DNA of 64,000 nucleotides from Hericium rajendrae (taxonomy: Eukaryota; Basidiomycota; Agaricomycetes; Russulales; Hericiaceae): NCBI GenBank assembly GCA_033439255.1, contig CM065878.1:1984001-2048000 (forward strand). Direction: 5' to 3'. The stretch's first letter is position 1, and each line of letters begins with the position of its first letter. The translations under genes were made by a program, and so were the position numbers. The notes under the pieces are model-generated. The model had not been told where the DNA came from. It saw only the letters and a list, made by a program, of their open reading frames with translations, and searched no databases. Positions 3,510-39,345 of the stretch are shown one piece after another.

Positions 3510-3571
3510 GACTGATCAGACTGAGGCTGGTTGTGAGAGTCGATCTTTAGCAAGACGGTTATCCAATCCCG

Positions 3572-3581
3572 TATAATTATA
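3572..3581 (-). promoter_or_regulatory. TATA-like site upstream of the EthD-like gene
   Basis: The AT-rich palindromic string TATAATTATA lies 63-72 bp upstream of the EthD-like ATG at 3509. It is a plausible core promoter element. Confidence 0.4.
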
Positions 3582-4037: not shown

Positions 4038-6085
4038 TCAAACGTCAGCCCAGCCTCCCTCGTCGAGTTTATAGGATGCCTCTGATTCTGGCTTGTCGGG
4101 GCTGTCCACGAGCTTGGCGACACGTTCCTCGGCACGACCTGGATGAATACATCAAAGATCAATGTCTTGGATGGACAAACGCGGTGCCGAGTCCTAGAAG
4201 CGGCAAGGTCCTGTGGTCACCTTTGCGAAGGAACATCCGAGTTGCGGACGCATGAGATAATATGTGACCACCGATGGGCTTCAGTGCACCGCCAGCAACG
4301 AAAGTCATCGTTGCACCGGGATCCGCTGAGGATGGTATCAAAGACGTTAGCTCGCCGCAGATACAACCAAACTGAAGAAAACCTGCATTGGACTTGATTG
4401 GTCATCAGGATGGCAATCTAGACGAGCAATTGATCTCAATATTAGCTCTTGGAAAGGGAAGATACGAGACAAACATTGAACTCTTCAGATAATTTGGAGA
4501 GTTTAGAAAGCATCTGAAGGTAAGCAAGTTCGGGGGTGATAAGAGAACAATCTTCTAAGCGACGCAGCGACGTACTTGGCCAAGCTTGGGAGAACAGTTC
4601 GTAAAAGAATACAGATTCATAAGATAGAGTTCCTACCTTTTGCTGCCGTTCGCTCAGTTCACCACGTCCAGAGAAGTCCACACGGAAGAGCGCCATAATA
4701 CTATCAACGATCTGGTTGGAGGGTCAGATATGAGATTTAAGAGAACGCTCAATCCTGGGGCCGAATGCCTAACACTGACCAGTAGCCGGAAATCCTTGTC
4801 TTCAGCAAACCTCATCGAGCACTCGTTGATGAGCTCCATCTGATCACTTATCAGCCAGAAAAACAGTGATGACCTGTACCATATTGCCGACCTGATGTTC
4901 GCTATTGTGAGCACGAGCTGAACAGATCCGGCTATGGTCAACGTCTGAGATATTCAGCAAAGAAGACCGACCGTAGAGAATGTTTTCCAATGCCATGTCG
5001 GAATTAACCCCAAAGCGCTCCGCAATGGACTTAATGCGGTCTGGGCGGAACGTTCCTGCGAGGAAAATCAGAGCAATGTACGGATTGGGGGTCCCTGCCT
5101 ACCTTCGGTATCAATGTACGCCACCTAGCAGCAGGTATATTCGTTAAATCGACAAAGGAAGAACAGTAACGCATATAGCTACCTTTCCAGAAGCCCCACC
5201 GAGTTCTGCAGGCAATTGAGCGACAACGCTCATTGTATGCGCCAGCTGTGTTTTTCCAGTCCGGTATTCGCCGTAGACTGAGGGAAATTGTAAAACAAAA
5301 GGAGGATTTTTGATGACGGCAACAGACCTTCTGTGATGGACTGCGACATAAGTCCACCTAAGGGAGGTTCTCTGAGCTAACGCGGATAAGCGTGAAGGTG
5401 AAACTCTCATACCGCCGAGCATAGCATCCACCGATTTACTGCCGGTGCTGATATTTATAACTCGCTTGCGCTTGTCCTGCATTTCGAGGCCGGTAGCAAA
5501 TGACGATCCCTAGAAGACAGTCAAAATTCGGATTAGGCGTAGACTTCGTAGCTCGAGCCAGACTGACAAGAATTTTGTGGGCCGCTTCCTATCAAACACG
5601 TCAAATCGGATTCGACACGTACTGTCTCAGACGGGCGCACTTTAATTTTCTCTACCTTTGCCTCCGACATTCCCTTCAAAAATGGTGATCAACGACCATA
5701 CGTATCATGAGATATGAGTACATACTTTGATCTTCAACATCTGCCTTCTTGTCGTCATGTTAACGCCAGAAACTGTGTTGATCGCAGAGGCCTGATTTTC
5801 ACTCATCAGCTTAGGCATATACCGTCACCATGCTAAATCTCACCTTAAGCTTGAGGATGTCTTGCACGTTGATCCCCTGCACTCGTGTCAGAATGAGATA
5901 ATGAGCGCATATATGCGCCTTCTGGATGAAAACATACATGCTGCTGAAGCTCGTCAACTGAGTCAAAGTATGGCGCCTGCCGCAATCAGCAAAGTCAGCT
6001 CCTGGATATCTAACATTGCCGGTTGAGCAATCACATCGTCGAACTCGTCTGCAGGTGGACTCGCTGGTCGAGAGGGGGGCGCCAT
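4038..6085 (-). CDS. DMC1: Meiotic recombinase DMC1 (RecA/Rad51 family)
   Basis: ATPase that forms filaments on single-stranded DNA and carries out strand exchange between homologues in meiosis. About 19 exons can be joined by eye. In order they give an acidic N-terminus ([17 protein letters not shown]), the helix-hairpin-helix region ([18 protein letters not shown]), [16 protein letters not shown], Walker A in [28 protein letters not shown], Walker B in [28 protein letters not shown], and [27 protein letters not shown]. The protein ends EGGWADV. The SVVAQLP and [30 protein letters not shown] segments are DMC1-type rather than RAD51-type. Unusual features are a 30-nt exon (5328-5357), a 9-nt exon (4576-4584) and one probable GC-AG intron. 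The gene appears intact, and expression is probably restricted to meiosis. The 0.5 kb after its stop holds no recognisable gene. Confidence 0.93.
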
Positions 6086-13078: not shown

Positions 13079-13892
13079 CTATGCTGATGTTCCATGCTGT
13101 TCCATCTTTGACCACCATTCTTTTGTCTTTATGTCAAGCTCTAATAGCCGGTCATCCTCCTCGGCAAGCTCTGGTGTATGAGAGGTGAGGAACATGCGAT
13201 CATCAAAGTCGCGTAGTAATCTAATCGTCTCTCTTCCTGAACTCCTCGACAACGCAACATACAGATTGAAGAGACTCAATTTTCCAGATGGCGGTGACGC
13301 GATGTCAATGACAATGTGAGGAATAGTTTGACCCTGAGACCGGTAGTCTGTAAACGAGTAGGCCGCCGTCATCGGGAACTGTTGACGATGAACATGGCAG
13401 GTCATCGTCTTCTTGTTGTCTGGTATCTTGATCTGAAATGTTCGCATGTCAGGCTCAATAGGTATTACTGACTCCTCAAGGCCTGGAAGACGTGTTGCTC
13501 GTGTTCGCTGCATCTTAACAAGGATGTAGAGCGGCAAATGTTGTAAATGTACGATAGGTTCGTCTCCGTATGATGGTTTGTCCGGGTGAAGAATGATGTT
13601 AATGATCTCGCCGCGCGCTCCATTTGTGACGTCTAGATCAGTCTGCACATTCATTGTAACCATGACCTTCATCCCAACACAGAGCTCAACAGTTTCCGGT
13701 AAGTCAGGGTGTTTTTTCTTCTTTTTCCCTTCTTGTCGTGTTGAATGAATTACTACGCCATAGCGTTCAGCCAGGGTCAACGCACGGTAAGAGCGGTCCT
13801 TCACAGTGTCATCTGCGGTACAAATGAAAAGACGACTACCCTTTTGCTGGCAGTGCTTCCGGATTGCTGCATCGTTCCAATGCTTTCGGACT
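13079..13892 (-). pseudogene. Helitron Pif1-like helicase, C-terminal part
   Basis: Continuation of the helicase: HAVRKHW, then LCVGMKVMVTMNVQTDLDVTNGARGEI, motif V-like FTDYRSQGQTIPHIVIDI and motif VI LYVALSRSSGRETIRLLRDFD, ending MEQHGTSA at TAG 13079-13081. The open frame extends upstream into the inserted element by chance. Confidence 0.88.
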
Positions 13893-13901
13893 GCGTGGCG
13901 T

Positions 13902-14921
13902 TGATGTGTGGACCCTGGGAATGGAGGCGGCAGCCAAAACCAAAACCAACAGAGTACCGGGGGGTGCGAGGGGACCAAGTATCTCAAGAGGGGAGCGCCG
14001 AGACGTGTAGCTGACGGGTGATCGTACTACGGGTAGGGGAGCAAGGCCGCGGAGGGCGAGCTTGCTGCGCGCGGGCGACTTCTGACGCGGCTCTGCTAGG
14101 GACGATGACGGTACGACAAGACTCACGGGTCTTAGATGATATGGCTTGTAGATAACGGTGCAGCGACGAGTACGACGAATACGATGAGCGACACGAGAAA
14201 GTGAGAAGAGCTACATCTGAGACGTGCTTAGAGGCTGGGGTGAGAACGTCAAACGGCGGGCTTTGTGAGATCTGAGCTCTGAGGGGAAAAAGGCAGATTC
14301 CGTTCTGATTCTCTAAGTCAGTAGCTACGGTACAAATGAGCAAGGCCGCCTCAGGCGGCCCGGCGCGACTTCCTACGACAACCTCCCGCTGACCGACCCA
14401 ATCTCCAATTCCTTCCTGATCCTGCCTGCTCCGGGTCCCTTGGCGAGTGGAGTCGTTGCGGCTTGGCCCGTGCAGGGCAGAGGGCGTGCACGTGGTACGA
14501 ACGAATCAAAGGTGCCGCCTTACAACGTCGCCTGGGGCGTGCGTCGGGAACGGCGGGCGCGTCGAGCTGGAATGGCTGGGATGACGTCAGTAGCACACTG
14601 TCACGGGCGCCGCTCGTGATCCGGGGGCGTGTGGGCGTTCAAGGGTGCATTGATTGAGCCGGCTGGTTCTCTGGGCGCGCTTCTGTTCCTGTGCCGCTGA
14701 CTCGTCCGGCTGGTTGATCTCTGGCCCGTTCGGTGCATCGGACCACGGGACACCGGCTTTAGTCCGACCCGGTCGGTCCCGAACCCGTGGGGGCGCTTGT
14801 CCTGTGCGGGGAGCAACGTTGCGGTGGGCGGACTTGGTGCGGCTGAGGTGAAGTGAAGCGGGACGGGCAAGGAGGCAGGGAGTGGGCAATGCCGTTGCAA
14901 GGCGCGCTAAAGGGCGCATCA
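13902..14921. mobile_element. 1,020-bp non-autonomous element inserted in the Helitron helicase
   Basis: Flanked by a perfect 9-bp direct repeat, GCGTGGCGT, at 13893-13901 and 14922-14930. Removing the element and one repeat rejoins the helicase frame exactly (VTPR-HAVRK). The ends are TGATGTGTGG and, on the other strand, TGATGCGCCC, so the inverted terminal match is only TGATG(Y)G. A 9-bp target duplication is usual for Mutator-like elements; the short inverted repeat makes this tentative. The interior is GC-rich and shows no transposase. Confidence 0.75.
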
Positions 14922-14930
14922 GCGTGGCGT

Positions 14931-16502
14931 AACAAGAGCTGCAGTACTCCAAGGCAATGATGTGAAGTCGGTCTCGGGGCATGTCGGGTGGGATATGATC
15001 AAGTTTCGGAGCATGTCAAGATCATCCTGTTGTACTTGTCCAAATCGTAGATTCTGTAGGAATGTTCTCCATCTTGGATCTGTGACCCGCATCTGCTGTT
15101 TCAAAATGATCATGTCCTTGAATTCCTCATAGATTCCTCGCCCAACTTGAGATTCAATGCTGTCTCGAGCAACATTCGGTGGCCAATACAAAGCTTCGCT
15201 CACAGCCACAGCGACGGGTGGAAATTGATGGAAATCACCGCACAAGATGACGTTTATGCCTCCAAAGGACTGGGATGCATTCGAAGCGCCGGGCTTCTGC
15301 TTGCCAATTCCAATATTGCGCGATAATTTGGCCAAGAAGGTTTTTGATAGCATAGAGCATTCATCGAGAATCAGGTACTCGAACAGCTCCCAGAACTGAC
15401 TCAACTTTGCCTTCGTTTCGTCGCTCAACCCGTCTCCATACTGAGAGATCATGCCAATGGTATGCATGGTCTTGCCATCGATCAATGATGCTGCGACGCC
15501 AGTATATGCGGCCTTCAGTAACTTGTGTTCGACGTGGCGCTTGATAAAATATTGCGTGATGGTCTGTATGACTTTTGACTTGCCTGTCCCGCCCTCACCG
15601 TGGATCAGTAAGCAGAGTGGAGGAACTGGTTTTTCTGCAAGTGTCTGCTCCAAGTGCCAGGTAACCATCTCATAAGCACGCCGTTGATCGACCTTTAGTT
15701 CTGATGGTGCCGCAGGAAGTAGCGACTCCTCTGTGAGCACATGCATGGAAACCACAGCTGGCTCACTATCGTCATCATCATTGTCGAGGTTATCGATATC
15801 ATCACTTGAAAGCTGAGAAACACCAGGACCGTGGTTATTTCTAGGCGGCGGCGGTGGTGGCGGCAATGGTAATGGATTATTGTTACGCGTGTTTTGCATG
15901 GTCACATCTAGATCCATCTGTGCTTTCCATCGTAAAAGCTGTTCAATATCCTCTGACTGAGCATGTGTGACCCCTGCATGAGACACGGCAGAATGACTCG
16001 TCCAAGACCCTTGGTCGACCGCACGGGCAGAAAAAATACCAGCATGGATGGCGTATTGAACAGCAGCTCGTGCATGAAGCTCCTCTTGTGGCACGACCTG
16101 ACTGGCCTTGAGAGCAGCGAGACCCTCTTCAGTGAAGGCATGGGGTGCAACTCCCTGCGCAACATCTTCTCCAAGGGCGAGATCATCTTCATCCCCCGAA
16201 GGGTTCACTGTTCGTCGAGAGGATCTCTGACCATGACGATCACGAGTTGCAGCTGAGACACATTCATGATAGTACTGGATGCCGCTTAGGATCTTCACGA
16301 TATCGAGAGGCGCACTGTCCATAAATCCACGAAAGGCTGTCTCCCAAGTTTCTTCAGAAAGCCTCAAGTCGGAGAGATTGCGCCAGGGCTTGAGCAATAC
16401 TAGCATACAAGTGCAGTAGAATGCAAATATTTCTGGATCATCATTGCGAGGGAAGGCACGGCCAATAAAGTTAGGAAGGGTATTATGACCGTGGCTGCGC
16501 AT
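14931..16502 (-). pseudogene. Helitron Pif1-like helicase, N-terminal part
   Basis: Superfamily 1 helicase with Walker A HGEGGTGKSKVIQTI, motif Ia KAAYTGVAASLIDGKTMH, Walker B LILDECSMLS, and motif III NVILCGDFHQFPP. The frame is open back through 16,502 to the TGA at 16605-16607 and ends where a foreign element begins, at ALVTPR. The helicase continues beyond the insertion at 13,892 with HAVRKHWNDAAIRKHCQQKG. Confidence 0.88.
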
Positions 16503-17223
16503 GATGCGAAGAGACTTGTTGTGCTTTGGGTGCTGATGTCGATACCGTACTCGCTCGTTCCGTGGGCGCCCAGGACGACGATGGCCATCGCCTTCAGGTT
16601 CTTGTCAATCTCGAGGCATAATGTCTGATTCGTACATATTGATGAAATAGTCAAGCACGGATAGATCACCGAGCTCATCGCCACGCAGCTGATAGTCAAC
16701 GACCTGGCACTTTGTAAACAGGTGACCTTGGGAATCAGACTCGAGCATCAAGATCTCGTTTCCATCCTTGAAGGAAGACAAGAGTTAGCTTCCTTCAAAC
16801 ATAATGGTATTATAGATCGTACCTCAGCATCCTGGACATCACGTTCAGCACGCATTTGAATTTGATCCTCAACATTCGGCGCTTCTTCTTCCGTCTCAAC
16901 TGTGGGCGGTGGCCTCGGTGTGACTTCCACCTCTGAATTATCTGATTGATGGCTACATGGAATAGTGGCAAGAACATTAGCGGGCTGCCACGCACAAAGA
17001 TAATGCATCTATTACTCACCGCACTCCGAGCTTCAACTCAGGGAAAGCCTTAAGCAATGCACCTACAAACGATGACCAGAATATTGCAGTATAATGGTGG
17101 GATTTGAACGTGTCGCCCCAGCCCATGAGATAAGAAATGACCATTGGTGCAGCGAGCTCTTGCTCGCGGTTGATTCTTTGAAGGACTCGAATCAAAAGCT
17201 TACGCTGGCTATCGTGCAGGCCG

Positions 17224-18693
17224 TCAAGATAATCTGTATGCTCCAAGTGAAATGCATGTCCCTTCGTTCGCCATGAGAGCGGACATATTATGGTTCTTGC
17301 CTTGCTTCTTCGCGGAGTAACCTGTCACGTAGAAGGTCACATTCTTCGTGTCAGGATCATGTGTCAACAGCTTGCAGTCGTTGTTGCACCGTACACAGAC
17401 TGCGATTGATGGATTCCAACCGTTAAGAAATTCGTACAACCGCTTTGGACACCACTGACCCAACTCATCGATATAAGTTTCTTCCGCAAGCTCGAAGGGT
17501 GCTCCACGCTTGCATCGGAGACCTCCACGTCCATCGGCGATCAAGCAGCGACAAATTTTGCAGGTGTGCAACTGTTTTGCCCGCACAACACGACGCTCAA
17601 AATCTTCGATCTTGTCTTTGTAGCCAGGCAAATTGGGATCGGGAGGACGGGAATATGCAATCTCGACTTCATTCGGAACAGACTTCACGTTCTTCTCTGA
17701 ATCGAGGCCAGGGAGGTGAGCGCGCATGTTCTGATCGATATATGCCTTGACACGTTGACGAAACTCTTCAGTTTTCAGTAGATCTTGTACCTCGTCAGGC
17801 GACGGGCAGTCTTCAAGCCAGACCAGCATATGTAGATGGAGCATTCCACGGCCTTGTGATTCGACCGTACCAAAATACACAGACACGCGACCAAAGATAC
17901 CCATACCGTTGACAGTGCGCCCGCCACCTGTAACCTTGACCTGAAGCAATGTCTCAAGGATGATCTGGATCATAAAGTGGAAGAATTTGGCAGCAGCGTA
18001 AGGGTCAGAAGCAATGTTTTCTGCTCGTTGATGCTTGTCCGGTCCTAATGTAGACATGAACGCGTCCAAGTCAATCTTCTCGCCTGCAAAAATTTGTGCG
18101 ATAGGATCATGGAGGTCGCAGGGATTGATAGTCAACCAAATCCAAGGTGGGCCTTTTACTGCTGTCGTTGACCAAATCTGACTGCGAAGCTGATAGCGAG
18201 ATTGGTCTGAACCTACGACACGGCCACCTGTAGCATGGATATGCTGCCGAAGTAGACGAATTGCTGGATCCGAGATAGGTTGGTTTTGTTCTTCTTCCTT
18301 TGCAGCCCTCTCTAATCTCTCCTTGGTGATCGTAGACAAGATACGTGCATCGCTGGCAAAAGTCTTCCTTCGCATTTGGATTCGTGCCGAGTTGAGAACC
18401 TGTCGACACTGTTCAATGCCGAACACGACAAAGGGAAAAGATTCATGTCGCCGGAAGCGACGATCATGATAAAGAATTGCCCATCGGACGTGCTCCATGA
18501 ATGACACTGGGACTTCCCGATCAGCCTCAATACCACCCCGGCCATATGGGAACAGAAACGGGTACGCCTTCTCAAAGAAGTTGGTCCGATTTGCATCGTA
18601 CGGTCGCTCTTCGCCTTTACGTGGCCGACCAAAGTCATTCACAGGTTGCTTCCCATGTCGCACAGCATAGCCGCCCTCTGCCCCTTCTTCTCA
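17224..18693 (-). pseudogene. Helitron Rep (HUH endonuclease) domain
   Basis: Contains the Helitron-like N-domain (RHGKQPVNDFGRP, FEKAYPFLFPYGRGG, WIWLTINPCDLHDPIAQIFAG) and the two-histidine HUH motif in RGMLHLHMLVWLE. The tyrosine region NVTFYVTGYSAKKQGKNHNMSA includes the Y-x3-Y spacing. Rep nicks DNA to start rolling-circle transposition. A TGA at 18691-18693 precedes it in frame (upstream reads TASELMAYGLANL). At its 3' end a CGAA duplication at about 17262-17269 throws the frame off; removing it restores AKGHAFHLEHTDYLDGL, which continues to 17,016. Confidence 0.88.
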
Positions 18694-19172
18694 CAAATTT
18701 GCAAGGCCGTACGCCATCAGCTCGCTTGCCGTAACGTTGCTCAGGTCTGTATCAATTACTCCCGAGACTTGTAAGGGTATAACGTCAGGTTCTTCTACAG
18801 ATACATCAGTGTCCGTCACCAGCGCAGTGCTTTAGAGTCCTTACCTTCACCGTTCGTAGCTGACTGCTCAGCAGTACCTCCACTTTGCTCATTATCTTCT
18901 GTCCCTATAATATAGATTCAGCTAGAGTCTACTAATGATTGACGACATGCACCAGCACCCTGATCTGGCTCCTCATCTTCTCGAGGAACATAGCCAGAAT
19001 GTTCTTCATCTAGAATACCAACATCGGACGACTGATGAACATTAGCTAGGATTTCTTCTGGTACGTCGTCCTCTGGTAGTTGCTCCATGCATTCATCGCT
19101 GATCTCGATTCCACCATAGTACTTGGGATTATGCTCCTTCAACCAGATCAATGCATCACGGACAGCGCTGCG

Positions 19173-20210
19173 TCAGACTCGAAAGGTCGAGTACATCCAG
19201 TCCTTCGGTAACGTGCCAAGTCCGACGAAGGTCACGGACATGATAGATGCTAGAATTGCTGGAGGACATGGCATGAGACGTCCCTGTGTCATAGCAGCAA
19301 TCCCTTCGATGTCTTGTTCATATGTACTGACGTTCCCTCGCATTCCTCGCTGCAGCCCTGCTTGATCACGGCATCCCCAGGTCTTCTTTGTCAACAGCTT
19401 GAAGATGTAGACACGTGGATAAAGGAGAGAGATGAGCAGTTGCTCTGAGAAGGTGAGCCTGCGTAGCTCTGTAGGAATCTCGCCGATCCAGAGGTTGTTC
19501 GCCAATGAGAATCTTGGTGGCTTTGCTGACCGCTTGTCCTTTAATGCAGTTAAGCATTGGTGGCAAATTGAAACTGACGGCGACGGGCTAGCAGTGTCCA
19601 TTCTATGCTCATTGAGCAGCATTCCGTCGACTAGGTGCTGTGCCGGATGAAGTATGTCGGGTTTAGGATGTAGGCGTGAGGGATTGGGAATATCACAGAT
19701 GGGGATTTTCTCGATATTGTCATCTGTAATGCTGCACTCACGAGCGCATACACCACAGATCTCCATAGCTATAGCAGCAGCTGATGTGGATTCGAAGAAC
19801 TGCCGATAACAAGCCTGCAGCTCATCATCCGACGGTAAAGACAGGAATGAACTGGTGACAGCAGAGGGAGGTTCAGGATCATCAGTGGTAGGAGGAGGTT
19901 CGGGATCGTCAGTGATGCGTGGGGCAAGACGGCGTGATGGCTCCTGGTCCTCTGTATGCTTTTGTTTTGCAGAGACCTTCTCCTGAGCTTTATTTGACCA
20001 TTTCTCTCTTCCTAGTGCATGGAGAAAGGAGATCTCCTCCGCAGATGCACGAGCAAGTATGCCTTCAATCAACAACTCCTTTTGTTTACACTCTGCACGG
20101 GATACTGAAATGCGGATGACCTTTAAACGAGCCATGATTTCTCTCACAGTAAGTAAGTCTAACTCATCTGTAGCTGCCGACACTGATTCCAATGGAGATA
20201 CAGAGGCCAT
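19173..20210 (-). pseudogene. Helitron N-terminal region (DUF6570-like)
   Basis: Frame from ATG 20210 gives an N-terminal segment (LTVREIMARLKVIRISVSRAE), a charged linker with TTDDPEPP repeats, then the conserved ICGVCARECS...IPNPSRL...LVDGMLLNE, SICHQCLTALKDKRSAKPPRFSLANNLWIGEIPTELRRLTFSEQLLISLLYPRV. This is the Cys-rich block seen at the front of fungal Helitron helicases. It stops at TGA 19173-19175, where relatives continue; the frame immediately beyond reads RSAVRDALIWLKEHNPKYY, so the stop is a point mutation, probably CGA to TGA. Confidence 0.85.
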
Positions 20211-23699: not shown

Positions 23700-24046
23700 C
23701 TAGATGTATCATGTCATTGTCCAAACCAAGTTTGGGCACGACACCATGGATGACTGCCAGTGCTCCTGTGCATGTGCGGGCTGTCATGCACAGCCCCATC
23801 TTGCCCGCGCAGGGCTGCAGATGACTGCACCAGCATGTGGATGCACACATGCACACCATTTTGCTAGTGTGCAGACTGCCATGAGCAGACCCATCTGCTC
23901 GCATGGGGCCTCTCATGCCTGTAATGCACATGCACAACCATGCACAACCACACATGACTGCCAGCACAAGCAAGCATGCAGCTGCTGTGTGTTGGCAGCT
24001 GCAACATCCCCACCAATTGTGCCGCCAAAGAACATGTTTGCACTGG
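23700..24046. repeat. GTGCATG-rich low-complexity sequence
   Basis: Repeated CATGCAC, GCATGTG and CATGCACAGCCCC words resemble those beside the Copia relic near 10.3 kb, suggesting the same degenerate repeat family. The outer hAT element inserted at its right edge. Confidence 0.35.
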
Positions 24047-24521
24047 TAGGGACCGACACGAGTGGACTCGCGGGTGACCCGGATCCGAACCCGCGAGTCT
24101 CCAGCCTGGCCAGAGACCAGACCTGGATCCGCGCGGGTTCGCGCCACCGAGTCACCCGGAGCCGCGGGTCGGGTACCCGCGACAGGACGAGTCACCTGCG
24201 GGTCTTGCTACTGTACAGAGAAACATGAGGATGGCCTTGGAGATGCTGGACTGCTCGCTGGCGTAGCGCGTCGCACCGCGCGCACCCTTGTACACCACCT
24301 TCAGCGACACGAGCACCTTCGCCTTGTCGAACTTCTGGCGCTTCAATGCGCGGGTTGTCTATGATCTTTGAGCGGTGCAGCGTCAGGCCGTGGTTCCTGA
24401 GGATTGCGCGCGTGAGCGAGCGCAGGCCCTCCGCATTTCTGTCGCCGACGTCAGGGCTGCAGGCGGGCGTCAGCATTATACAGCATACTTGCAAGAGAAG
24501 GAAAGCGCACCGAGCAGCGGC

Positions 24522-25558
24522 CTAAGTAGCCTCGTACTCCGCCTTCTTCGCCTCATTGCGCGCCGTCTTCACTTCTTCACGAGCGAATGGTACTGAAAGG
24601 ATCAGAACAGAGCTTTAATTTGCAGGCAGATTTATTTACATACCTTTGGTACCGCAGACTTCGGTGAGGCCCAGTAAGACTCCCTCTTGAGAAGACTCGC
24701 GTGATAACTGTAGAAAGATGTATAATCAATAGATTATCCTCCACGGAATCATCACCTGGTTGAGATGCATGCCGAGCGATTCGGCCACATTTGCCAGAGG
24801 GAACACAGGGAGGATTTCCTTGAGTACAATGATGGCATTGCAGACATGCATGAATTCGCCGGTCTGAATACACTCCGCGAGCGACTGTAGAAGGAGAATC
24901 AAAACGTTAGTAACGAAAACACGCTGAAATACAGCCGATACGAACTTTGAAAAGCTTGCGATGCCATTTGCGCATAATTTGCTGGAAATTCGTCCAAGAC
25001 AGGACCACAGACGGCTCCACAGCGTCGATCTGAGGAGCGATCCGCTTGCACGTACTTGGTGTCCTCTTGGCGGCTCAGAGCACGGAGATTGGCTCCTTCC
25101 TCGTCGTATTTGGAGCTTGGCGGTGCGAGATCGTAAGTCGATAGTTGCCAGAACGTCATGTAGAATCCAGGGCTGCATCATCGCCGTCAGAAGGAACAAG
25201 AAGATACAATAAACATGACACGTACCCAACGATGTCATAAGCTTCCTTAGGTGCAACCTTTGTGCAACCTTTTTCAAGTCATCAAACAAGGCCTCGATTT
25301 CCGGCACCCAAGGACTCTGCGGCGAAAACATAAGTACGAAAAGAGATGAATCAAGGATATAAGACGCACCTCAGACTGCGGAGGTGTGGTGACAACTGCA
25401 TTCTCCATCACGACGTCTTCCAAAGGCTTGGGCTCTTGTGTAGCAGGCTTAGCGTCCCCATTTGGATCGGACGTGGGGGGCTCTGCTGAACCGGGCGACG
25501 CTGTCCTTCTCCCCGCTCGTCCTCCTGTGCCTGAAAGAGATGCGCGTTCTCTCAGCAC
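24522..25558 (-). pseudogene. THO2-like gene fragment carried by the outer hAT
   Basis: Mirror copy of the fragment in the inner element, with the same 11-bp duplication and the same internal deletion. The lesions therefore predate the duplication of the transposon. Neighbouring DNA in both copies (about 24,200-24,480 and 25,570-25,940) also has coding-like, GC-rich composition, for example a Cys-rich ECEACRECEACRVRE string, and may be further captured sequence. Confidence 0.75.
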
Positions 25559-26986
25559 ATATCTGAGCGAGCGTGCTTCGTCAGCAGAGCACGCGTTGCG
25601 ACTGCGCGCAGCGTAGGGCGAGTGAGCAGAGCGCGCGGCCTCGCGCCTCCGGCTCCGCTATCCAAGTCCTCGCCATCCAGCCCCAACCCCCGCACGACCG
25701 CCTCGCGTACGCGACATGCCTCGCACTCGCGACACGCCTCACACTCAAGCCGCCGCTCGCGGTACGGAACGTCATCGTCGTCGCCAACCGCGCTCGTGCC
25801 CGCGATCTGCGCAGGCTCTTCTTGCGAGTCGTCTTGTCCGCCGCGTCCGCCGCGCTGCCATCCTTGTGCCTTCGGAGTATTTGATGCCCCATGAGCACCA
25901 ACACGGTGAAACTGATATACAACTCACTGGAGAGCTTTACCCCACCTGACCGCTTGTCGTTCGCTCAAAGCGCGTGAGACGATGGGAGTCGATATTGATG
26001 GGAGGTGCGTCGTCTGAGGAACGGTTTAGGAAGCCCCAAGCGTGAATTTACAATAAAGCAATGAATCGTTAATCATGACTCGCCAGAAGAAAACACAACT
26101 ATCACAGCAGGAGCACCATTGCATGTCACTGAGACCCAAGTTTGTGGATGTTTAAAGATCGAGAGTCGAAATAATTGAATGTCCGAGCAATGGCCGGCGG
26201 CTCGGCTTGGGTCGCGGCCTTGTTAGCATGTTCCGTGCTGCCCTCTCGAAGGTGAGTTCTGAAATTTGAAGCAAGCCACGCACCATGTGTGGGAGTATTT
26301 TATCAGTAGGAAAAAACACAAGGCAGATACAGAAAAAAAAACAAGTGAAATCTATCGTACCGTGGTTACTCTGTAATACGTTCTCTGCAGAGGGAGTCGA
26401 GCGCCCAGGCTATTGGGGTCTGTCAACGCGGAGCGCCCACTAAGTACCTAAGCTAACGCCTCATTTCAACACTACTATTCGAACTCTCGTCTCCAGTCAC
26501 CATGAGCGTACGATTGTACTTGCTCTCGGTAGTTGTGTCCAGGTGAGCAATAAATTCGTATGTATGGTACTGCCGATAATTGAGCGTCATTATAGCTGTA
26601 GCAGTTTGGGCCATAGCACAACCGATTCCCCGCTTCGATGCCTGACGTTAGACAGCAAGATCATTGCTAGTACATTCCATCTCCCGCTCTCTCTCGCCTC
26701 ACTTGAAGAGCCTTGTGTTCCGGTATCATGCCAGCATTCGTGTTATGATATTCAAGCTGCCCTGGTTTGCAACTGTCGATTCCTCACAAGGTATCTTTTC
26801 TCTAAACCCGTTATACTACTAGGGCTCCACTCACACGAAGTGGACGTGCTCGATCTGTTCAATGACACAATGGCATCGCGATGGCCATTGAGCCGAGCTG
26901 TCAGTGCCGTGTAACTTTGATCGATCGCGACGGTGTATTGTCCACAAGATCTCTAGACTTGTGAACTAATCAATTCCCATAAAATC

Positions 26987-27333
26987 ATGGCAACTAACGG
27001 CTCCGTCTTCTCTAGATTTTCCACCCCCTCTTCCTCCTGGCTGCACTCTATCATCTACTCTATCCCAATGGTTCGCAAGCGTGCTCGCTCGCCGTCTTCA
27101 GAGCCGAGCATCCGTGAATCCAGTCTTCCACCTTCAAGTGTCGCGCCTTCAGACGTAGCGTCTCCGGATCCGCCAGCAAAGAAGCTGAAGGCGTTATTCA
27201 ATGCCCGCTATGAGACGTCAGTCAAGACCAATGAAGAGGTCCTTGGTACGTTTCGAAGCCAGTGCATCTCTTACTGATCTTACCATTCGTCTTTCGTAGA
27301 AATGCAACGGAAGCGGTGGAAATCTGTTGTATA
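26987..27333 (+). pseudogene. hAT transposase of the outer copy, 5' fragment
   Basis: Exon 1 is identical to that of the inner copy (MATNGSVF...NEEVL), followed by an intron and EMQRKRWKSVVY. The inner hAT then interrupts the second exon. The rest of the gene resumes at 33,409. Confidence 0.9.
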
Positions 27334-27562
27334 TAGGGTCCGACACGAGTCAGAGTCACCCGCGGGTCAAGACAGGTAAACCCGTGGGAATTACCTGCAG
27401 GTCTCTGACTCACGGATCCGGATCACCCGGTGGCTGAGACCTGTGAGGATCCAGGTCACAATTTCGCTAAAATGCAATGACCCGCAGGTTACCTGCAATG
27501 ACCCGTGGTCTAGAATATATTTCAAGTTCAAAAAGGGACATATGAATTATCTAGTCTAAACA

Positions 27563-30460
27563 TCAATCTTCCTGCTCTGTGATATCAATGCTATCTACTG
27601 CATCCTTTGGCCTCCTGCACTTCTCCTTGAAAATGCGGGTGATATCTTGCTCCGGTATCAATCCATCTATCCTTGCCCAAGAATTGAGAACTGTTGATGC
27701 ACGTGTTGATTCGTCAGAGAGATTGTGACGGAGTTTTGTCACTGTGAGGCCACCACGAGAGAAGCCTCGTTCGACATCTGTACCTGCAGCTAAACATGAC
27801 TTTAGAGACGAGTATCACAAAAGGTTTGGCCACTTACCAGGTGCAGATAAGAAGTCGACAGCCATGCGTGCAAGGGGACTGCCAGCGCGGTCCCACCAAG
27901 AGATCGGGTCCTCCACGTTGCTGATAGGCGGCGAATTCAGGTAGTCTTCCAGTTCGTCACCACCGCTCTTGCCAAACTCATCAATATCTGCAAATGCATC
28001 TTGATCCTCGGACACAGACTGAAAAAGCTAATTAGTATACGAAAGACGGCTCAAGGACGCATTACTTACAGTGCCATCAGACGCTGATGTAGGCTGCTCG
28101 GATGGCTTGTAGAAGGTAGCCCACTGCTCTCGAAGGATGTCCTTTGCAGTCTCGATCCAATTGTCAGGCCACTTTTTTTTGACGAAGTATGCAGTCTTGT
28201 AGCGTGGGTGAAGAACTAGTATGTAGAGGTAAGTACTAATGTACAGGTGCAGGGACGAAAAAACCATACCCATGGCACACCGATACATGATAGAGTCATC
28301 AGTCTTACTGTAGTACTTGTTGAGAATGGCCACGCCCTTTGCTGCCGCTGCACGGACAGCAGGAAATAAAGTCGCCTTGTTAGATGCATTTTCAAGGGTT
28401 TCGGTCAGAACGTCAATGACAGGAATCACTTCGTGCAAGAGTGGAATCTTGCTGCGCGACATGCGTTCGGTTGCAAGAAGAAACTTCTAAAGGCAAGGTT
28501 AGTCTTGAATAGAAAGCCCAAAAAAGCCACTCACGGTCAATATGGGCTCGAGCTGCGCTAGCAGATCCCATTCGTCTCGAGAGAGTCGATATCTCTTGAG
28601 TTTTGCTCGACCAGATTTGTTGTGACGGTCGATAAGTACTAACTTGTCCAATGCAGGCCGAAGGTATAGGGCTGACTTCACCATCTCTGCGACTGAATTC
28701 CACCGTGTCGAAACGGAGCGCTTGACTTTCTTTGGCTCGATTTTCGCCTTCTCACAGCATTCTTGAAGGTCGTCTGTCAGTGACGTCGAATGATGAATGC
28801 GGGATGCCAGTTTTGTTATCTAGACAGTAAGAGTTAGTAAATGTAATGAGTAATGCAAACGGACCAATACCTTGGTAACTGCAGTGCAGCCAAGGTCAAT
28901 GTCATGTTGCAACAGACGTCGCTCAGCCTCCACCTCCAGAGCAACGCTATGGATCTCTGTCGTCACTGGCCAATCTATCTTGATCTACCTCCTCGGCAGC
29001 TTCACGATCTTCTTCATCCAGCTCGAGCTCTTCATCCTCGTCATCACTATCCTCCGATGAGACAACCACTGTCTCCTTCTTCGACTTCGCAAATTGAGAC
29101 AATATCGCCTGTCTCACTGGTCAATCAGGAAATCAAAACAAATGGGCGAGGCATACCTTGACCGCAAGATTGAGGATGTGACATATACAACGGATGCGGG
29201 TATGTACACCGCTCATGCCACCGTCTGGCATACGCAACTCCAACTCGGATGTAGCTGTATCGTTGTTGGATGCGTTGTCATAGACCTGGCCCAAAAGCTC
29301 GTTGATCATCAGCACCATTCTATCGAGAGAAACATAGTATATAAACTTACCATATGTGCAATTCCGAAGCTATCTAAACACTTATATATCTCCTCGGCCA
29401 AGTTTTCCCCGGTGTGGGCCTTCGTCATTCTACTTAAGTTGTTAGCCGATTAATTGGCATCACGAAATAAAAGACCAACCTAATGAAGTCCAAAATGAGG
29501 GATAACATCTGGCCGTTTTGGACCAGAAACACAATGATACCAAGGAAGGAGTACAGGTTAGGTGATGACCACCCATCAACTCCAATATGCAGCTTTCCTG
29601 TGTGTCGCTGAAACGACTCAGTTGCAGAAATGAGTCGCATCCATGAAAACGTACCTGCAGCATGTTTCCGACATTCTTTTTCGATATGGCAAATATCTCC
29701 TTAACGTCGCGGGAGATCGTCTTGTCTGACGGTAGCTCGACCTTTGCATACAGCATGCGGAACATGCGCTGAAGGTAAGGGTCGTTGATGATGTTGAAAG
29801 GCCTGTGGCTACTTGCACACCACAAGCTCGCCAACATCCGGAACTCTTCCTTTGAATAGAGCGTCCCGTTGGCGAACATTGTAATTTGCTGTTGTTGTTC
29901 TGCCACTATGCCTTCACAGCTCTTGGTGTGTCGTTGGAGATTGCTGGTGCTGTCGTCGCTACGTTCACGTGTGACGCTCGTGCTCGGATGCCTATCCAGT
30001 CATGAAAAGAGCCTAGAGGTGAGAATGCGACTAGTACATACTTTTTGCAGATGAATTTGTACTTGATGACCCCTTTCTCAACGACGATCAACGGCGGCAT
30101 CTTGAAGTGTTCATATACAACAGATTTCCACCGCTTCCGTTGCATTTCTACGAAAGACGAATGGTAAGATCAGTAAGAGATGCACTGGCTTCGAAACGTA
30201 CCAAGGACCTCTTCATTGGTCTTGACTGACGTCTCATAGCGGGCATTGAATAACGCCTTCAGCTTCTTTGCTGGCGGATCCGGAGACGCTACGTCTGAAG
30301 GCGCGACACTTGAAGGTGGAAGACTGGATTCACGGATGCTCGGCTCTGAAGACGGCGAGCGAGCACGCTTGCGAACCATTGGGATAGAGTAGATGATAGA
30401 GTGCAGCCAGGAGGAAGAGGGGGTGGAAAATCTAGAGAAGACGGAGCCGTTAGTTGCCAT
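27563..30460 (-). pseudogene. hAT transposase of the inner copy (2-bp frameshift)
   Basis: Exon 1 from ATG 30460 (MATNGSVFSRFST... NEEVL) splices to EMQRKRWKSVVYEHFKMPPLIVV and a BED-type zinc finger (FICK-HPSTS...STSNLQRHTKSC). The catalytic core follows (HIGVDGWSSPNLYSFLG, DNASNNDTATSELE, CICHILNLAVK, an acidic insert, RSVSTRWNSVAEM). The protein ends in the hATC dimerisation domain (DPISWWDRAGSPLARMAVDFL, ERGFSRGGLTVTKLRHNLSDES). Compared with the outer copy it lacks 2 bp in the acidic insert (between 28959 and 28960), which shifts the frame. Otherwise it is complete with several short introns. The transposase would cut at the terminal repeats and reinsert DNA. Confidence 0.88.
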
Positions 30461-31888
30461 GATTTTATGGGAATTGATTAGTTCACAAGTCTAGAGATCT
30501 TGTGGACAATACACCGTCGCGATCGATCAAAGTTACACGGCACTGACAGCTCGGCTCAATGGCCATCGCGATGCCATTGTGTCATTGAACAGATCGAGCA
30601 CGTCCACTTCGTGTGAGTGGAGCCCTAGTAGTATAACGGGTTTAGAGAAAAGATACCTTGTGAGGAATCGACAGTTGCAAACCAGGGCAGCTTGAATATC
30701 ATAACACGAATGCTGGCATGATACCGGAACACAAGGCTCTTCAAGTGAGGCGAGAGAGAGCGGGAGATGGAATGTACTAGCAATGATCTTGCTGTCTAAC
30801 GTCAGGCATCGAAGCGGGGAATCGGTTGTGCTATGGCCCAAACTGCTACAGCTATAATGACGCTCAATTATCGGCAGTACCATACATACGAATTTATTGC
30901 TCACCTGGACACAACTACCGAGAGCAAGTACAATCGTACGCTCATGGTGACTGGAGACGAGAGTTCGAATAGTAGTGTTGAAATGAGGCGTTAGCTTAGG
31001 TACTTAGTGGGCGCTCCGCGTTGACAGACCCCAATAGCCTGGGCGCTCGACTCCCTCTGCAGAGAACGTATTACAGAGTAACCACGGTACGATAGATTTC
31101 ACTTGTTTTTTTTTCTGTATCTGCCTTGTGTTTTTTCCTACTGATAAAATACTCCCACACATGGTGCGTGGCTTGCTTCAAATTTCAGAACTCACCTTCG
31201 AGAGGGCAGCACGGAACATGCTAACAAGGCCGCGACCCAAGCCGAGCCGCCGGCCATTGCTCGGACATTCAATTATTTCGACTCTCGATCTTTAAACATC
31301 CACAAACTTGGGTCTCAGTGACATGCAATGGTGCTCCTGCTGTGATAGTTGTGTTTTCTTCTGGCGAGTCATGATTAACGATTCATTGCTTTATTGTAAA
31401 TTCACGCTTGGGGCTTCCTAAACCGTTCCTCAGACGACGCACCTCCCATCAATATCGACTCCCATCGTCTCACGCGCTTTGAGCGAACGACAAGCGGTCA
31501 GGTGGGGTAAAGCTCTCCAGTGAGTTGTATATCAGTTTCACCGTGTTGGTGCTCATGGGGCATCAAATACTCCGAAGGCACAAGGATGGCAGCGCGGCGG
31601 ACGCGGCGGACAAGACGACTCGCAAGAAGAGCCTGCGCAGATCGCGGGCACGAGCGCGGTTGGCGACGACGATGACGTTCCGTACCGCGAGCGGCGGCTT
31701 GAGTGTGAGGCGTGTCGCGAGTGCGAGGCATGTCGCGTACGCGAGGCGGTCGTGCGGGGGTTGGGGCTGGATGGCGAGGACTTGGATAGCGGAGCCGGAG
31801 GCGCGAGGCCGCGCGCTCTGCTCACTCGCCCTACGCTGCGCGCAGTCGCAACGCGTGCTCTGCTGACGAAGCACGCTCGCTCAGATAT

Positions 31889-32925
31889 GTGCTGAGAGAA
31901 CGCGCATCTCTTTCAGGCACAGGAGGACGAGCGGGGAGAAGGACAGCGTCGCCCGGTTCAGCAGAGCCCCCCACGTCCGATCCAAATGGGGACGCTAAGC
32001 CTGCTACACAAGAGCCCAAGCCTTTGGAAGACGTCGTGATGGAGAATGCAGTTGTCACCACACCTCCGCAGTCTGAGGTGCGTCTTATATCCTTGATTCA
32101 TCTCTTTTCGTACTTATGTTTTCGCCGCAGAGTCCTTGGGTGCCGGAAATCGAGGCCTTGTTTGATGACTTGAAAAAGGTTGCACAAAGGTTGCACCTAA
32201 GGAAGCTTATGACATCGTTGGGTACGTGTCATGTTTATTGTATCTTCTTGTTCCTTCTGACGGCGATGATGCAGCCCTGGATTCTACATGACGTTCTGGC
32301 AACTATCGACTTACGATCTCGCACCGCCAAGCTCCAAATACGACGAGGAAGGAGCCAATCTCCGTGCTCTGAGCCGCCAAGAGGACACCAAGTACGTGCA
32401 AGCGGATCGCTCCTCAGATCGACGCTGTGGAGCCGTCTGTGGTCCTGTCTTGGACGAATTTCCAGCAAATTATGCGCAAATGGCATCGCAAGCTTTTCAA
32501 AGTTCGTATCGGCTGTATTTCAGCGTGTTTTCGTTACTAACGTTTTGATTCTCCTTCTACAGTCGCTCGCGGAGTGTATTCAGACCGGCGAATTCATGCA
32601 TGTCTGCAATGCCATCATTGTACTCAAGGAAATCCTCCCTGTGTTCCCTCTGGCAAATGTGGCCGAATCGCTCGGCATGCATCTCAACCAGGTGATGATT
32701 CCGTGGAGGATAATCTATTGATTATACATCTTTCTACAGTTATCACGCGAGTCTTCTCAAGAGGGAGTCTTACTGGGCCTCACCGAAGTCTGCGGTACCA
32801 AAGGTATGTAAATAAATCTGCCTGCAAATTAAAGCTCTGTTCTGATCCTTTCAGTACCATTCGCTCGTGAAGAAGTGAAGACGGCGCGCAATGAGGCGAA
32901 GAAGGCGGAGTACGAGGCTACTTAG
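31889..32925 (+). pseudogene. THO2-like gene fragment carried by the inner hAT
   Basis: Spliced segments read PWVPEIEALFDDLKKVA, KEAYDIVGPGFYMTFWQLSTYDLAPPSSKYDEE, SRQEDTKYVQADRSSDR, then WTNFQQIMRKWHRKLFK and SLAECIQTGEFMHVCNAIIVLKEILPVFPLANVAESLG. This matches the conserved core of THO2/THOC2, a subunit of the THO mRNA-export complex. The protein is far too short and lacks the stretch normally between ADRSSDR and the RKWHRKL block. An 11-bp tandem duplication (AAAGGTTGCAC, about 32175-32196) shifts frame. It lies antisense to the transposase, between the 5' terminal repeat and exon 1. I infer capture of a host fragment. Confidence 0.75.
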
Positions 32926-33408
32926 GCCGCTGCTCGGTGCGCTTTCCTTCTCTTGCAAGTATGCTGTATAATGCTGACGCCCGCCTGCAGCCCTGACGTC
33001 GGCGACAGAAATGCGGAGGGCCTGCGCTCGCTCACGCGCGCAATCCTCAGGAACCACGGCCTGACGCTGCACCGCTCAAAGATCATAGACAACCCGCGCA
33101 TTGAAGCGCCAGAAGTTCGACAAGGCGAAGGTGCTCGTGTCGCTGAAGGTGGTGTACAAGGGTGCGCGCGGTGCGACGCGCTACGCCAGCGAGCAGTCCA
33201 GCATCTCCAAGGCCATCCTCATGTTTCTCTGTACAGTAGCAAGACCCGCAGGTGACTCGTCCTGTCGCGGGTACCCGACCCGCGGCTCCGGGTGACTCGG
33301 TGGCGCGAACCCGCGCGGATCCAGGTCTGGTCTCTGGCCAGGCTGGAGACTCGCGGGTTCGGATCCGGGTCACCCGCGAGTCCACTCGTGTCGGTCCCTA
33401 GTTGTATA

Positions 33409-35960
33409 TGAACACTTCAAGATGCCGCCGTTGATCGTCGTTGAGAAAGGGGTCATCAAGTACAAATTCATCTGCAAAAAGTATGTACTAGTCGCATTCT
33501 CACCTCTAGGCTCTTTTCATGACTGGATAGGCATCCGAGCACGAGCGTCACACGTGAACGTAGCGACGACAGCACCAGCAATCTCCAACGACACACCAAG
33601 AGCTGTGAAGGCATAGTGGCAGAACAACAACAGCAAATTACAATGTTCGCCAACGGGACGCTCTATTCAAAGGAAGAGTTCCGGATGTTGGCGAGCTTGT
33701 GGTGTGCAAGTAGCCACAGGCCTTTCAACATCATCAACGACCCTTACCTTCAGCGCATGTTCCGCATGCTGTATGCAAAGGTCGAGCTACCGTCAGACAA
33801 GACGATCTCCCGCGACGTTAAGGAGATATTTGCCATATCGAAAAAGAATGTCGGAAACATGCTGCAGGTACGTTTTCATGGATGCGACTCATTTCTGCAA
33901 CTGAGTCGTTTCAGCGACACACAGGAAAGCTGCATATTGGAGTTGATGGGTGGTCATCACCTAACCTGTACTCCTTCCTTGGTATCATTGTGTTTCTGGT
34001 CCAAAACGGCCAGATGTTATCCCTCATTTTGGACTTCATTAGGTTGGTCTTTTATTTCGTGATGCCAATTAATCGGCTAACAACTTAAGTAGAATGACGA
34101 AGGCCCACACCGGGGAAAACTTGGCCGAGGAGATATATAAGTGTTTAGATAGCTTCGGAATTGCACATATGGTAAGTTTATATACTATGTTTCTCTCGAT
34201 AGAATGGTGCTGATGATCAACGAGCTTTTGGGCCAGGTCTATGACAACGCATCCAACAACGATACAGCTACATCCGAGTTGGAGTTGCGTATGCCAGACG
34301 GTGGCATGAGCGGTGTACATACCCGCATCCGTTGTATATGTCACATCCTCAATCTTGCGGTCAAGGTATGCCTCGCCCATTTGTTTTGATTTCCTGATTG
34401 ACCAGTGAGACAGGCGATATTGTCTCAATTTGCGAAGTCGAAGAAGGAGACGGTGGTTGTCTCATCGGAGGATAGTGATGACGAGGATGAAGAGCTCGAG
34501 CTGGATGAAGAAGATCGTGAAGCTGCCGAGGAGGTAGATCAAGATAGATTGGCCAGTGACGAAGCAGAGATCCATAGCGTTGCTCTGGAGGTGGAGGCTG
34601 AGCGACGTCTGTTGCAACATGACATTGACCTTGGCTGCACTGCAGTTACCAAGGTATTGGTCCGTTTGCATTACTCATTACATTTACTAACTCTTACTGT
34701 CTAGATAACAAAACTGGCATCCCGCATTCATCATTCGACGTCACTGACAGACGACCTTCAAGAATGCTGTGAGAAGGCGAAAATCGAGCCAAAGAAAGTC
34801 AAGCGCTCCGTTTCGACACGGTGGAATTCAGTCGCAGAGATGGTGAAGTCAGCCCTATACCTTCGGCCTGCATTGGACAAGTTAGTACTTATCGACCGTC
34901 ACAACAAATCTGGTCGAGCAAAACTCAAGAGATATCGACTCTCTCGAGACGAATGGGATCTGCTAGCGCAGCTCGAGCCCATATTGACCGTGAGTGGCTT
35001 TTTTGGGCTTTCTATTCAAGACTAACCTTGCCTTTAGAAGTTTCTTCTTGCAACCGAACGCATGTCGCGCAGCAAGATTCCACTCTTGCACGAAGTGATT
35101 CCTGTCATTGACGTTCTGACCGAAACCCTTGAAAATGCATCTAACAAGGCGACTTTATTTCCTGCTGTCCGTGCAGCGGCAGCAAAGGGCGTGGCCATTC
35201 TCAACAAGTACTACAGTAAGACTGATGACTCTATCATGTATCGGTGTGCCATGGGTATGGTTTTTCGTCCCTGCACCTGTACATTAGTACTTACCTCTAC
35301 ATACTAGTTCTTCACCCACGCTACAAGACTGCATACTTCGTCAAAAAAAAGTGGCCTGACAATTGGATCGAGACTGCAAAGGACATCCTTCGAGAGCAGT
35401 GGGCTACCTTCTACAAGCCATCCGAGCAGCCTACATCAGCGTCTGATGGCACTGTAAGTAATGCGTCCTTGAGCCGTCTTTCGTATACTAATTAGCTTTT
35501 TCAGTCTGTGTCCGAGGATCAAGATGCATTTGCAGATATTGATGAGTTTGGCAAGAGCGGTGGTGACGAACTGGAAGACTACCTGAATTCGCCGCCTATC
35601 AGCAACGTGGAGGACCCGATCTCTTGGTGGGACCGCGCTGGCAGTCCCCTTGCACGCATGGCTGTCGACTTCTTATCTGCACCTGGTAAGTGGCCAAACC
35701 TTTTGTGATACTCGTCTCTAAAGTCATGTTTAGCTGCAGGTACAGATGTCGAACGAGGCTTCTCTCGTGGTGGCCTCACAGTGACAAAACTCCGTCACAA
35801 TCTCTCTGACGAATCAACACGTGCATCAACAGTTCTCAATTCTTGGGCAAGGATAGATGGATTGATACCGGAGCAAGATATCACCCGCATTTTCAAGGAG
35901 AAGTGCAGGAGGCCAAAGGATGCAGTAGATAGCATTGATATCACAGAGCAGGAAGATTGA
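33409..35960 (+). pseudogene. hAT transposase of the outer copy, 3' part
   Basis: Continues from the 5' fragment with EHFKMPPLIVVEKGVIKYKF and runs through the BED finger, catalytic core and hATC domain to TGA 35958-35960 (ending DITEQED). In this copy the acidic stretch (SEDSDDEDEELELDEEDRE and DQDRLASDEAEIHS) is in frame, so this half looks functional apart from lacking a contiguous 5' end. A 1-nt homopolymer difference from the inner copy at about 35,265 falls in an intron. Confidence 0.9.
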
Positions 35961-36197
35961 TGTTTAGACTAGATAATTCATATGTCCCTTTTTGAACTTG
36001 AAATATATTCTAGACCACGGGTCATTGCAGGTAACCTGCGGGTCATTGCATTTTAGCGAAATTGTGACCTGGATCCTCACAGGTCTCAGCCACCGGGTGA
36101 TCCGGATCCGTGAGTCAGAGACCTGCAGGTAATTCCCACGGGTTTACCTGTCTTGACCCGCGGGTGACTCTGACTCGTGTCGGACCCTATGCACTGG

Positions 36198-36883: not shown

Positions 36884-36966
36884 TGCCAAGAGCGTGGATT
36901 GAACACGCGACCTCCAGAATGCTTGTTCTCTTCAGTCTGTTGCTCTCCCAGCTGAGCTATCTCGGC
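36884..36966 (-). tRNA. tRNA-Phe(GAA) with a short intron
   Basis: The minus strand gives a 7-bp acceptor stem (GCCGAGA with TCTTGGC, one G-T pair), D arm GCTCAGCTGGGAGAGC, anticodon loop CTGAAG with anticodon GAA (complement of 36931-36933), and T arm GCGTG-TTCAATC-CACGC ending in discriminator A. Between the anticodon loop and the 3' stem half TCTGG are about 10 extra bases, in the canonical intron position one base after the anticodon. The first pair of the anticodon stem is weak (A opposite G). Confidence 0.92.
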
Positions 36967-37128: not shown

Positions 37129-39345
37129 TCAATCCCAGTCCCCATCTATTGTGCCCAAAACCTCAACGTCTACGTCCTCCTTTTTCTTCCGCGCTTGCTT
37201 CTTGCGAAGTTCGGGGCTTATGGGGCGCTCAACAGCAGAAGCAGCAGAATCCGAGGGGCCAGGACCTGGTGTGCGACTTTGTTTTCGAACGGCATTCGGC
37301 GATCGGGTCTCTCCACCAGCTTGGCCATCCAGTTGACCCATATTTGGTGGTGTACGAGCACGGATAATGGGCACTGGTCCAGAAAAGTCTTTCCCAGTCA
37401 TTCGGGAGAGTGCTTGCATGTCTTTTGGACAACAAAACGGTTAGAATTGTTTCATCACCGAACAATTAGACGACTGTACCATATGGAGTGCGATTTTTGA
37501 GACAGTAGTCGATTCGACTTGGGTTTTTCTTATCTTCAATCTTAAACTTATTCTTGCAGGACTTGCGATCGCGGCCAGGGAGAACATACGAAATCAGCTC
37601 ATAGTTTTCCCCGAATTGCGAGAGAGCCTGTAAAGTAAGAGTGAGTAAGGTATAGTATTCAGACACAATGACGCAACGCACATCGAAGAACAGTTCAGTC
37701 TCCTCCGCGCTCCAACGCGAACCTCTAAACTTCTTGCCGTAAGTTGCAGAGTTAACAAATTTCGTTGTATCTGACTCTTCGATGTGAGTGTAATGCTCGG
37801 TCTCATGTTCTTCCACGCGGTCCACGAAGAGCGATTCTTCATCAACTATAGTCTCTCCACTGGGCCCTATACGAATCTGCACATTGAAGCGACTGGTCGC
37901 GACAGACTCGGTGTAGTCAAAGCCATCACGGGTCCTTTCTGCGCTGACGTCGCCAGCTTGAATCTGAGCTACTAACGGAAGCGATGGTGACACCGCCGGA
38001 GATGGGGTTGTCGAGGGTCCTGGCGCGACTGTCTCAGGGAGAGCAGGTTGAGACAAGACGGCCTTTATCTACATCCTCTTCATTGCGACCATATTTCTTT
38101 GCTTCCATGAGTATTCGCATGCGTGCACGTTTTTCTCTATTCGTCTTCTTCCATGCGGCATGATTGCTGAGGATCTGTGCTGCCTTGCTGCTGATACGAC
38201 CCTGTCCAGTGTCATCACAAAGCGTGGCCATTGTCACCACGGTAGGATCCAATTCTTCTCCCGGATCGGCATCTGGGTCAAAAACGGGAACAGACGGTGC
38301 ACGCGACCGACGAGGCATCTTGGACTTGCGCTTCCGCTTGGAGCTTGTGTCGGATGTCTCGTCGTCCAGCTCAGAGTCATCCGCCGGAGTCGTTTGTTTT
38401 CGCCTCCTCTTCGGAACGTTCCCTGAGGATGGACCAAGGTCTTGACTAAATTTAACAGCTCCGTCGGCGGCTCGCTTCCTTGTTACGCGTTTCGGTCGCC
38501 CAGTCTCTGCTGCATGAGCCAAGCCGTCCTGTCCCAGTGCACGTATCTCTTCAACAGTCGTTCTTTGAGATTGAGAGGGTGTTATGAGGTTTCCGGGCTG
38601 TGGGTGGAGCGACAGAGAAGAATCCATCGGCATGGTATTAGACCCACTAGATATAGATGCTAAGCCAGCTTGGACTCCCTGCCCAACAATGGCCGAAAAA
38701 TCAAAGGGGATATGATCATCGCTGTTTGCGGTCGGAGAGCAGGCCGAAACGGCGGACTTGACGAGGGCGCATGGACGTCGGTTGAGACAGACGTCGATCC
38801 TGCCATGGCTCGGATTGGGGCAACGTCACGCGGAGCAGCGATTGGAACAGTGGACGCGCTGACATTGCGGGTAGCGGATGAGATTACAGTTGACAAGGTT
38901 GCCTGAGATGGCTGTGGAATGATCGGGGGCAGCACAGAGGCCAATTGTGTGGACAAAGTTTCAGTGCGGACAGACGGCGGGAGGGCTCCAGCTCTCGAGG
39001 GCTTAATCACATTGGACACAACAGGGGAGCTTTGGGACGAGCGCGAGGCTGGTACTCCGTCCTGAGAGGCGGCCGGTTGGCTTGGTGGACGTAGGATAGG
39101 TACTGGAGGCGGGGGCATTACTGATGAAGGCGGGGCAGGTGTGAGAGTCCCTCTGGCCCTGTCAGAAGGTCCCGATGAATTCTGTGCATCTGGCGTCGCT
39201 GATACTCTTCTGGCAGAGTCGGTCGCAGGACGGGACCTAGCTTTCGCCACAGGCTTGAAGATAGTACCTCCTTTCTCTGTTCGTGACTTTTAGCTGGTGG
39301 GTTGGCTGTGATAAGATTTATATACTCACGAACGCGTGTAGACAT
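37129..39345 (-). CDS. BDP1: TFIIIB subunit B'' (BDP1)
   Basis: Subunit of TFIIIB that holds TBP and BRF1 on DNA and recruits RNA polymerase III. The protein starts MSTR and, after a short intron, SRTEKGGTIFKPVAKARSRP. It has long Pro/Ser-rich and basic regions (KRVTRKRAADGAVKF, PKRRRKQTTPADD), then NHAAWKKTNREKRARMR...KKYGRNEE. The defining SANT domain is GSRWSAEETELFFD, an intron, ALSQFGENYELISYVLPGRDRKSCKNKFKIEDKKNPSRID. The tail ends EVLGTIDGDWD. The frame changes near 38,050 and the exon border there is unresolved; a weak-donor intron is likely. The gene ends 163 bp before the tRNA-Phe gene on the same strand. Confidence 0.88.

Follow-up and report, generated by a model that had tools for sequence, protein, structure and literature searches.

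A hAT transposon nested, inverted, in its own near-identical copy: a probable fungal counterpart of the maize double Ds

The double Ds of maize consists of one Ds element inverted within an identical Ds. According to the account in PMC3260210, every chromosome-breaking Ds of maize has multiple ends and nested Ds elements break chromosomes; the same account considers nested Ds to be counter-selected, and reports that no chromosome-breaking double Ds was found in maize B73. Natural structures of the double-Ds type seem rare. The formation of dicentric chromosomes is described as typical of alternative transposition between Ac/Ds elements that lie close together (PMC4270019). Among the titles and abstract openings listed in our literature searches, we found no fungal hAT element nested in itself. 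Here we describe such an arrangement in an agaricomycete genome (46.77 Mb searched, 19 contigs), within a window, the whole stretch of DNA analysed, of 64,000 nucleotides (C1:1984001-2048000). A protein search with one host reading frame listed 120 of 139 relatives, 27-70% identical to it; those that bear names come from Agaricomycetes, Lactarius and Armillaria among them, which marks the host as a mushroom-type fungus. A hAT-type DNA transposon of 6.07 kb holds a near-identical, inverted copy of itself and is broken after element position 3287 (Table 1), so that the feature by which a double-Ds-type structure is recognized, one copy inverted within a near-identical one, is present. A true self-insertion of a hAT element, the fungal counterpart of the maize double Ds, is in our view the best explanation overall, with a probability of roughly 80%. 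In the surroundings of the nest, a Helitron lies 4 kb to the left (window 13079-20210, minus strand), with open reading frames that contain Helitron_like_N, PIF1 helicase and DUF6570 domains. Some 0.7 kb separate the right end of the outer copy from a tRNA gene (window 36884-36966, minus strand; Rfam 52.4 bits), beside which lies a minus-strand reading frame (37466-38056) whose Myb domains belong to the Myb_DNA-bind_7 family.

Table 1. Parts of the nested element and of its host-derived cargo, in window positions.
Feature	Position	Strand	Remarks
Outer target duplication, left	24039..24046	.	TGCACTGG, perfect 8 bp
Outer copy, part 1 (X; element 1-3287): left end, cargo, start of transposase gene	24047..27333	+	
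Captured SAS10 fragment, piece 1 (element 189-542)	24235..24588	-	~82% to C3:1113516-1113875
Captured THO2 fragment (element ~546-1457)	24592..25503	-	C6:1760171-1761757; 3 pieces, 97%, 96%, 89%; introns kept
Captured SAS10 fragment, piece 2 (element 1672-1809)	25718..25855	-	~66-67% match
Inner target duplication, left	27326..27333	.	GTTGTATA, perfect 8 bp, within transposase codons
Inner copy, entire, inverted	27334..33400	-	6067 nt; transposase gene with 2-bp frameshift
Inner target duplication, right	33401..33408	.	GTTGTATA
Outer copy, part 2 (Y): remaining hAT transposase gene and right end	33409..36189	+	
Outer target duplication, right	36190..36197	.	TGCACTGG

The inverted nesting proposed in the preliminary description holds to the base in its arms, ends and duplications. 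Both copies have complete ends, TAGGG(A/T)CCGACACGAGT, with terminal inverted repeats alike at 16 of 17 nt, and the bounds that had been given for the inner (27334-33400) and outer (24047-36189) copies each coincide with an 8-bp duplication, GTTGTATA and TGCACTGG, respectively. The inverted arms are exact (100%) over 3288, 1162, 930 and 701 nt; exact arms of kilobase length cannot be due to chance when each junction also bears a target duplication. The order of the parts, originally written X-Y-X'-Y', is to be corrected to X-Y'-X'-Y. Once the inner copy is removed, the outer copy measures 6068 nt against 6067 nt for the inner, and pairwise alignment of the two reveals a single substitution, at element 4331, a difference of 2 bp at outer 4442-4443 and, within a T run, a one-base difference at inner 5138. 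The copies were said to differ by small indels only, which overlooks the substitution; the claim of very recent activity stands, at one substitution per ~6.07 kb. Polishing of so long a repeat might have introduced both indels, one of them in the T run, in error. The target sequence stands unoccupied in the inner copy itself, which carries an unbroken GTTGTATATGAAC and in this way provides a paralogous empty site.

The assignment to the hAT superfamily is borne out by the encoded protein. Open pieces in element 3022-5835 can be read as an intron-containing transposase, and the hand-spliced product matches the Pfam family Dimer_Tnp_hAT (PF05699) with an E value of 1e-6 and 28.8 bits, above the cut-off of 21.4, as well as Hermes in the PDB (E 1.4e-4). 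No Pfam match to an N-terminal BED zinc finger was obtained up to E 1; a putative one was read by eye. In addition to the hAT dimerisation region, the element has the short terminal inverted repeats and the 8-bp target duplication of the superfamily, the latter in both copies and in several relatives. A protein search returned 39 proteins that pass E 1e-10 among 7991 scored candidates; the best of them has 56% identity, the next ones with names come from Agaricomycetes (40-46%), and behind these stand rust fungi, ascomycetes and a single plant, none above 35%. The inner target does fall within the transposase gene of the outer copy, as had been suggested, where, in an early exon, the insertion splits the codons for SVVYEH. 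The transposase gene of the inner copy is 2 bp short in one of its later exons, which introduces stops where the outer copy is open, and the T-run difference between the copies lies in an apparent intron. As assembled, neither copy encodes an intact transposase, each through a different lesion, so that moving again would require the transposase of a relative.

With 1354 bases of the cargo half as query, the genome search recovered two full copies, both in the nest, and otherwise the two host genes alone (all 4 candidates scored). With 1401 bases of the transposase half, it recovered two near-identical copies, again both in the nest, and the next match stood at 70% (all 9 candidates scored). 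A third near-identical copy was not found by these two queries in the 46.8-Mb genome, and the near-identical copies recovered genome-wide are accordingly the two in the nest. A whole-element query (39 of 228 candidates scored) missed even the two nest copies and was excluded from the copy count, so searches of its kind may miss copies. Of the 85 left-type ends, 2 have precisely the left-end sequence of the element, and all zero-mismatch matches to its right-end sequence fall at two places; in each case these lie within the nest. The computed chance that a random insertion strikes a single sister copy is 1.3e-4, which favors a short-range event without proving one. The sequence shows that one copy entered the early transposase exon of the sister copy in inverted orientation and created the GTTGTATA duplication. 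In the self-insertion that we prefer, the donor would have been excised after replication and then inserted into its twin. Because no further near-identical copy was found, the sister chromatid's copy of this element, or a closely linked element, is the most likely donor. Earlier near-identical copies may have been lost since. With a recent nest, a small fungal genome and no other near-identical copy found, the self-hit and its aftermath are open to testing.

The foremost alternative is a chance self-hit, in which several near-identical copies once existed, the target was random or insertion-tolerant, and the other copies were lost later. We consider this unlikely, though the wider family lends it some weight. 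With at most two mismatches, the whole genome contains 158 right-type against 85 left-type family ends, an excess of right ends. When all 85 left ends were set against 126 right ends (drawn from 100 of 158 and 100 of 109 matches, plus three right ends on C14), 67 of the left ends paired with a right end and three pairs were nested. The two nests besides the one described here, at C1:1247581-1251015 and C3:1710044-1713059, each join different sub-families, which have little in common beyond their ends, where they are 80-84% alike. The inner copies of these nests are bounded by clean duplications (GTATGCAG and CCATGGGT); the flanks of the outer C3 copy are alike at 7 of 8 bases, and the 8 bases flanking the outer C1 copy, to which the nearest-pair rule had assigned a different right end, showed no match. 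Three nests in total compare with 0.24 expected (P 0.002; 66 pairs entered in this computation, against 67 from the pairing), or with P 0.02 where merely 40% of the genome accepts insertions. The two further nests indicate that nesting in tolerant regions occurs, but the lack of a third near-identical copy in our searches speaks against the chance reading. A general tendency of the family to nest in itself is not supported, as both other nests are of sub-families alike mainly at their ends. The pairing also brought out equal-length element pairs in mirror positions at C5:1356585-1391581 and C6:17854-34668, a pattern suggestive of large duplications in inverted orientation, or of assembly joins made the wrong way round, at these places.

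Both copies carry host-derived cargo, in which a fragment of THO2 sits within a more diverged fragment of SAS10. The element's own cargo reading frame encodes a Tho2 domain (E 2.5e-9); at the source locus on C6, THO2 domains (THOC2_N, Thoc2 and Tho2) were detected in three of the five reading frames tested, and the source gene on C3 encodes a Sas10 domain (E 8.1e-9), the domain search of two other reading frames at the C3 locus having given none. The cargo lacks two stretches of the THO2 gene, of ~65 and 622 bp. The ~65-bp gap, at which the flanking matches overlap by 3 bases, initially resembled an intron; capture of a spliced THO2 copy was nevertheless rejected, since other introns are kept and the gap lies in an open frame with the Tho2 domain. 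The introns retained in both the THO2 and SAS10 portions identify genomic DNA as the source, and the cargo was probably copied out of it during the repair of a break. Relatives of the element at 68-70% bear different DNA. Copies on C14 contain a stretch 95% identical to C16:163749-164183; the frame across this stretch encodes a Sugar_tr domain (E 5.6e-29), and an open frame at the C16 locus encodes nearly the same sugar-transporter protein. The same copies are also 81-91% alike to C8:2173783-2174935, and a relative on C10 resembles places on C3 (67-69%) and a short stretch of C9 (85%), so that a clear host-gene fragment is present in one of the two relative families examined. The THO2 fragment within SAS10, together with the sugar-transporter fragment of a relative, indicates that host DNA has been taken up more than once by transposase-bearing hAT elements of one basidiomycete.

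A further reading, which can be compatible with self-insertion, regards the nest as a silencing locus, where read-through of the inverted repeat would give a hairpin RNA that acts on the captured THO2 stretch as well as on the hAT family. The exact arms, 3.3 kb long, would suit such a role, as would 11 runs of 21 nt or longer that match the THO2 locus exactly (longest 105 nt, total 525 nt) and the Myb-domain reading frame at 37466-38056 (minus strand), which is directed at the element. A parallel is Mu killer of maize, a partial inverted duplication proposed as a source of hairpin RNA in the description given in PMC3440606. The SAS10 portions fit poorly, however, with no exact 21-nt run to the host gene in element 186-545 and a single exact run, of 22 nt, in element 1458-1900, and we regard this reading as improbable. 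Slightly less probable again is the extended version in which self-insertion acts as the element's own off-switch, with read-through from a neighbor yielding a hairpin RNA that would silence the hAT family and, by way of the captured stretch, lower THO2, a general RNA-export factor in the host. The junctions are those of the assembly, and the chance of assembly error was judged by internal signs. That a single element was falsely joined to its own reverse complement, as an artefact of assembly or duplication, is very improbable: long exact inverted arms are difficult to assemble, but two different 8-bp duplications stand precisely at the ends of both copies, the inner copy retains an unoccupied site, and the copies are unlike at three places.

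The preliminary description had also named the inverted arms as a likely source of rearrangement. The ends of the nest follow one another as left, inverted right, inverted left and right, an order that places adjacent left and right ends in direct orientation. Given a transposase, these multiple ends may break chromosomes, as in maize. Sequence signs of rearrangement come from the relatives at C14:510267-557428, a rearranged cluster of three related 6.1-kb copies, 99.5-99.7% alike, and a left-end piece; one of the copies is without its first 606 bp. In this cluster, CCAAACAT adjoins one copy at its left end and another at its right end, and GGTCTTGG adjoins the third copy at its right end and the further piece at its left end. 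This further piece and the second copy may together be a single element that holds an insert of 16 kb. Where the two halves of a target duplication lie at different copies, recombination or alternative transposition has taken place between these, so that the family does rearrange chromosomes. Rearrangement is thus supported for the C14 relatives and not for the nest.

Each ingredient of the nest has a precedent, in the double Ds, in transduplication by fungal hAT elements and in Mu killer. The double Ds of the maize Ac/Ds system is likewise a hAT element within its own kind, with surplus transposon ends, but Ds is without a transposase, whereas both copies in the nest have a (broken) transposase gene and host cargo. 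The transduplication of histone H3 in Pyrenophora and Pseudocercospora, as described in PMC3538342 and PMC6710886, similarly involves a fungal hAT in which transposase sequence accompanies a captured host gene; in those descriptions an intronless transcript was captured and amplified, whereas the nest holds intron-bearing genomic DNA, a gene within a gene, in two copies. Intron-bearing genomic host fragments between hAT ends are also described for Ds2 and Ds-l4 of maize and for Pack-hAT elements (PMC3260210, PMC8903248), from which, by these descriptions, the transposase is absent, whereas the nested element has a transposase gene as well as cargo. It has captured coding DNA between its ends, as Pack-TYPE elements do, but it is not classed with them because a transposase gene is present, though broken in both copies. 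Mu killer, of the maize Mutator system, is likewise described as an inverted duplication with transposase sequence and element ends (PMC3440606); it belongs to another superfamily, and the likeness of the nest to it is one of structure, with silencing putative. The nest is a fungal example of a maize-type structure, and the seeming absence of further copies and a cargo drawn from two host genes add to its interest.
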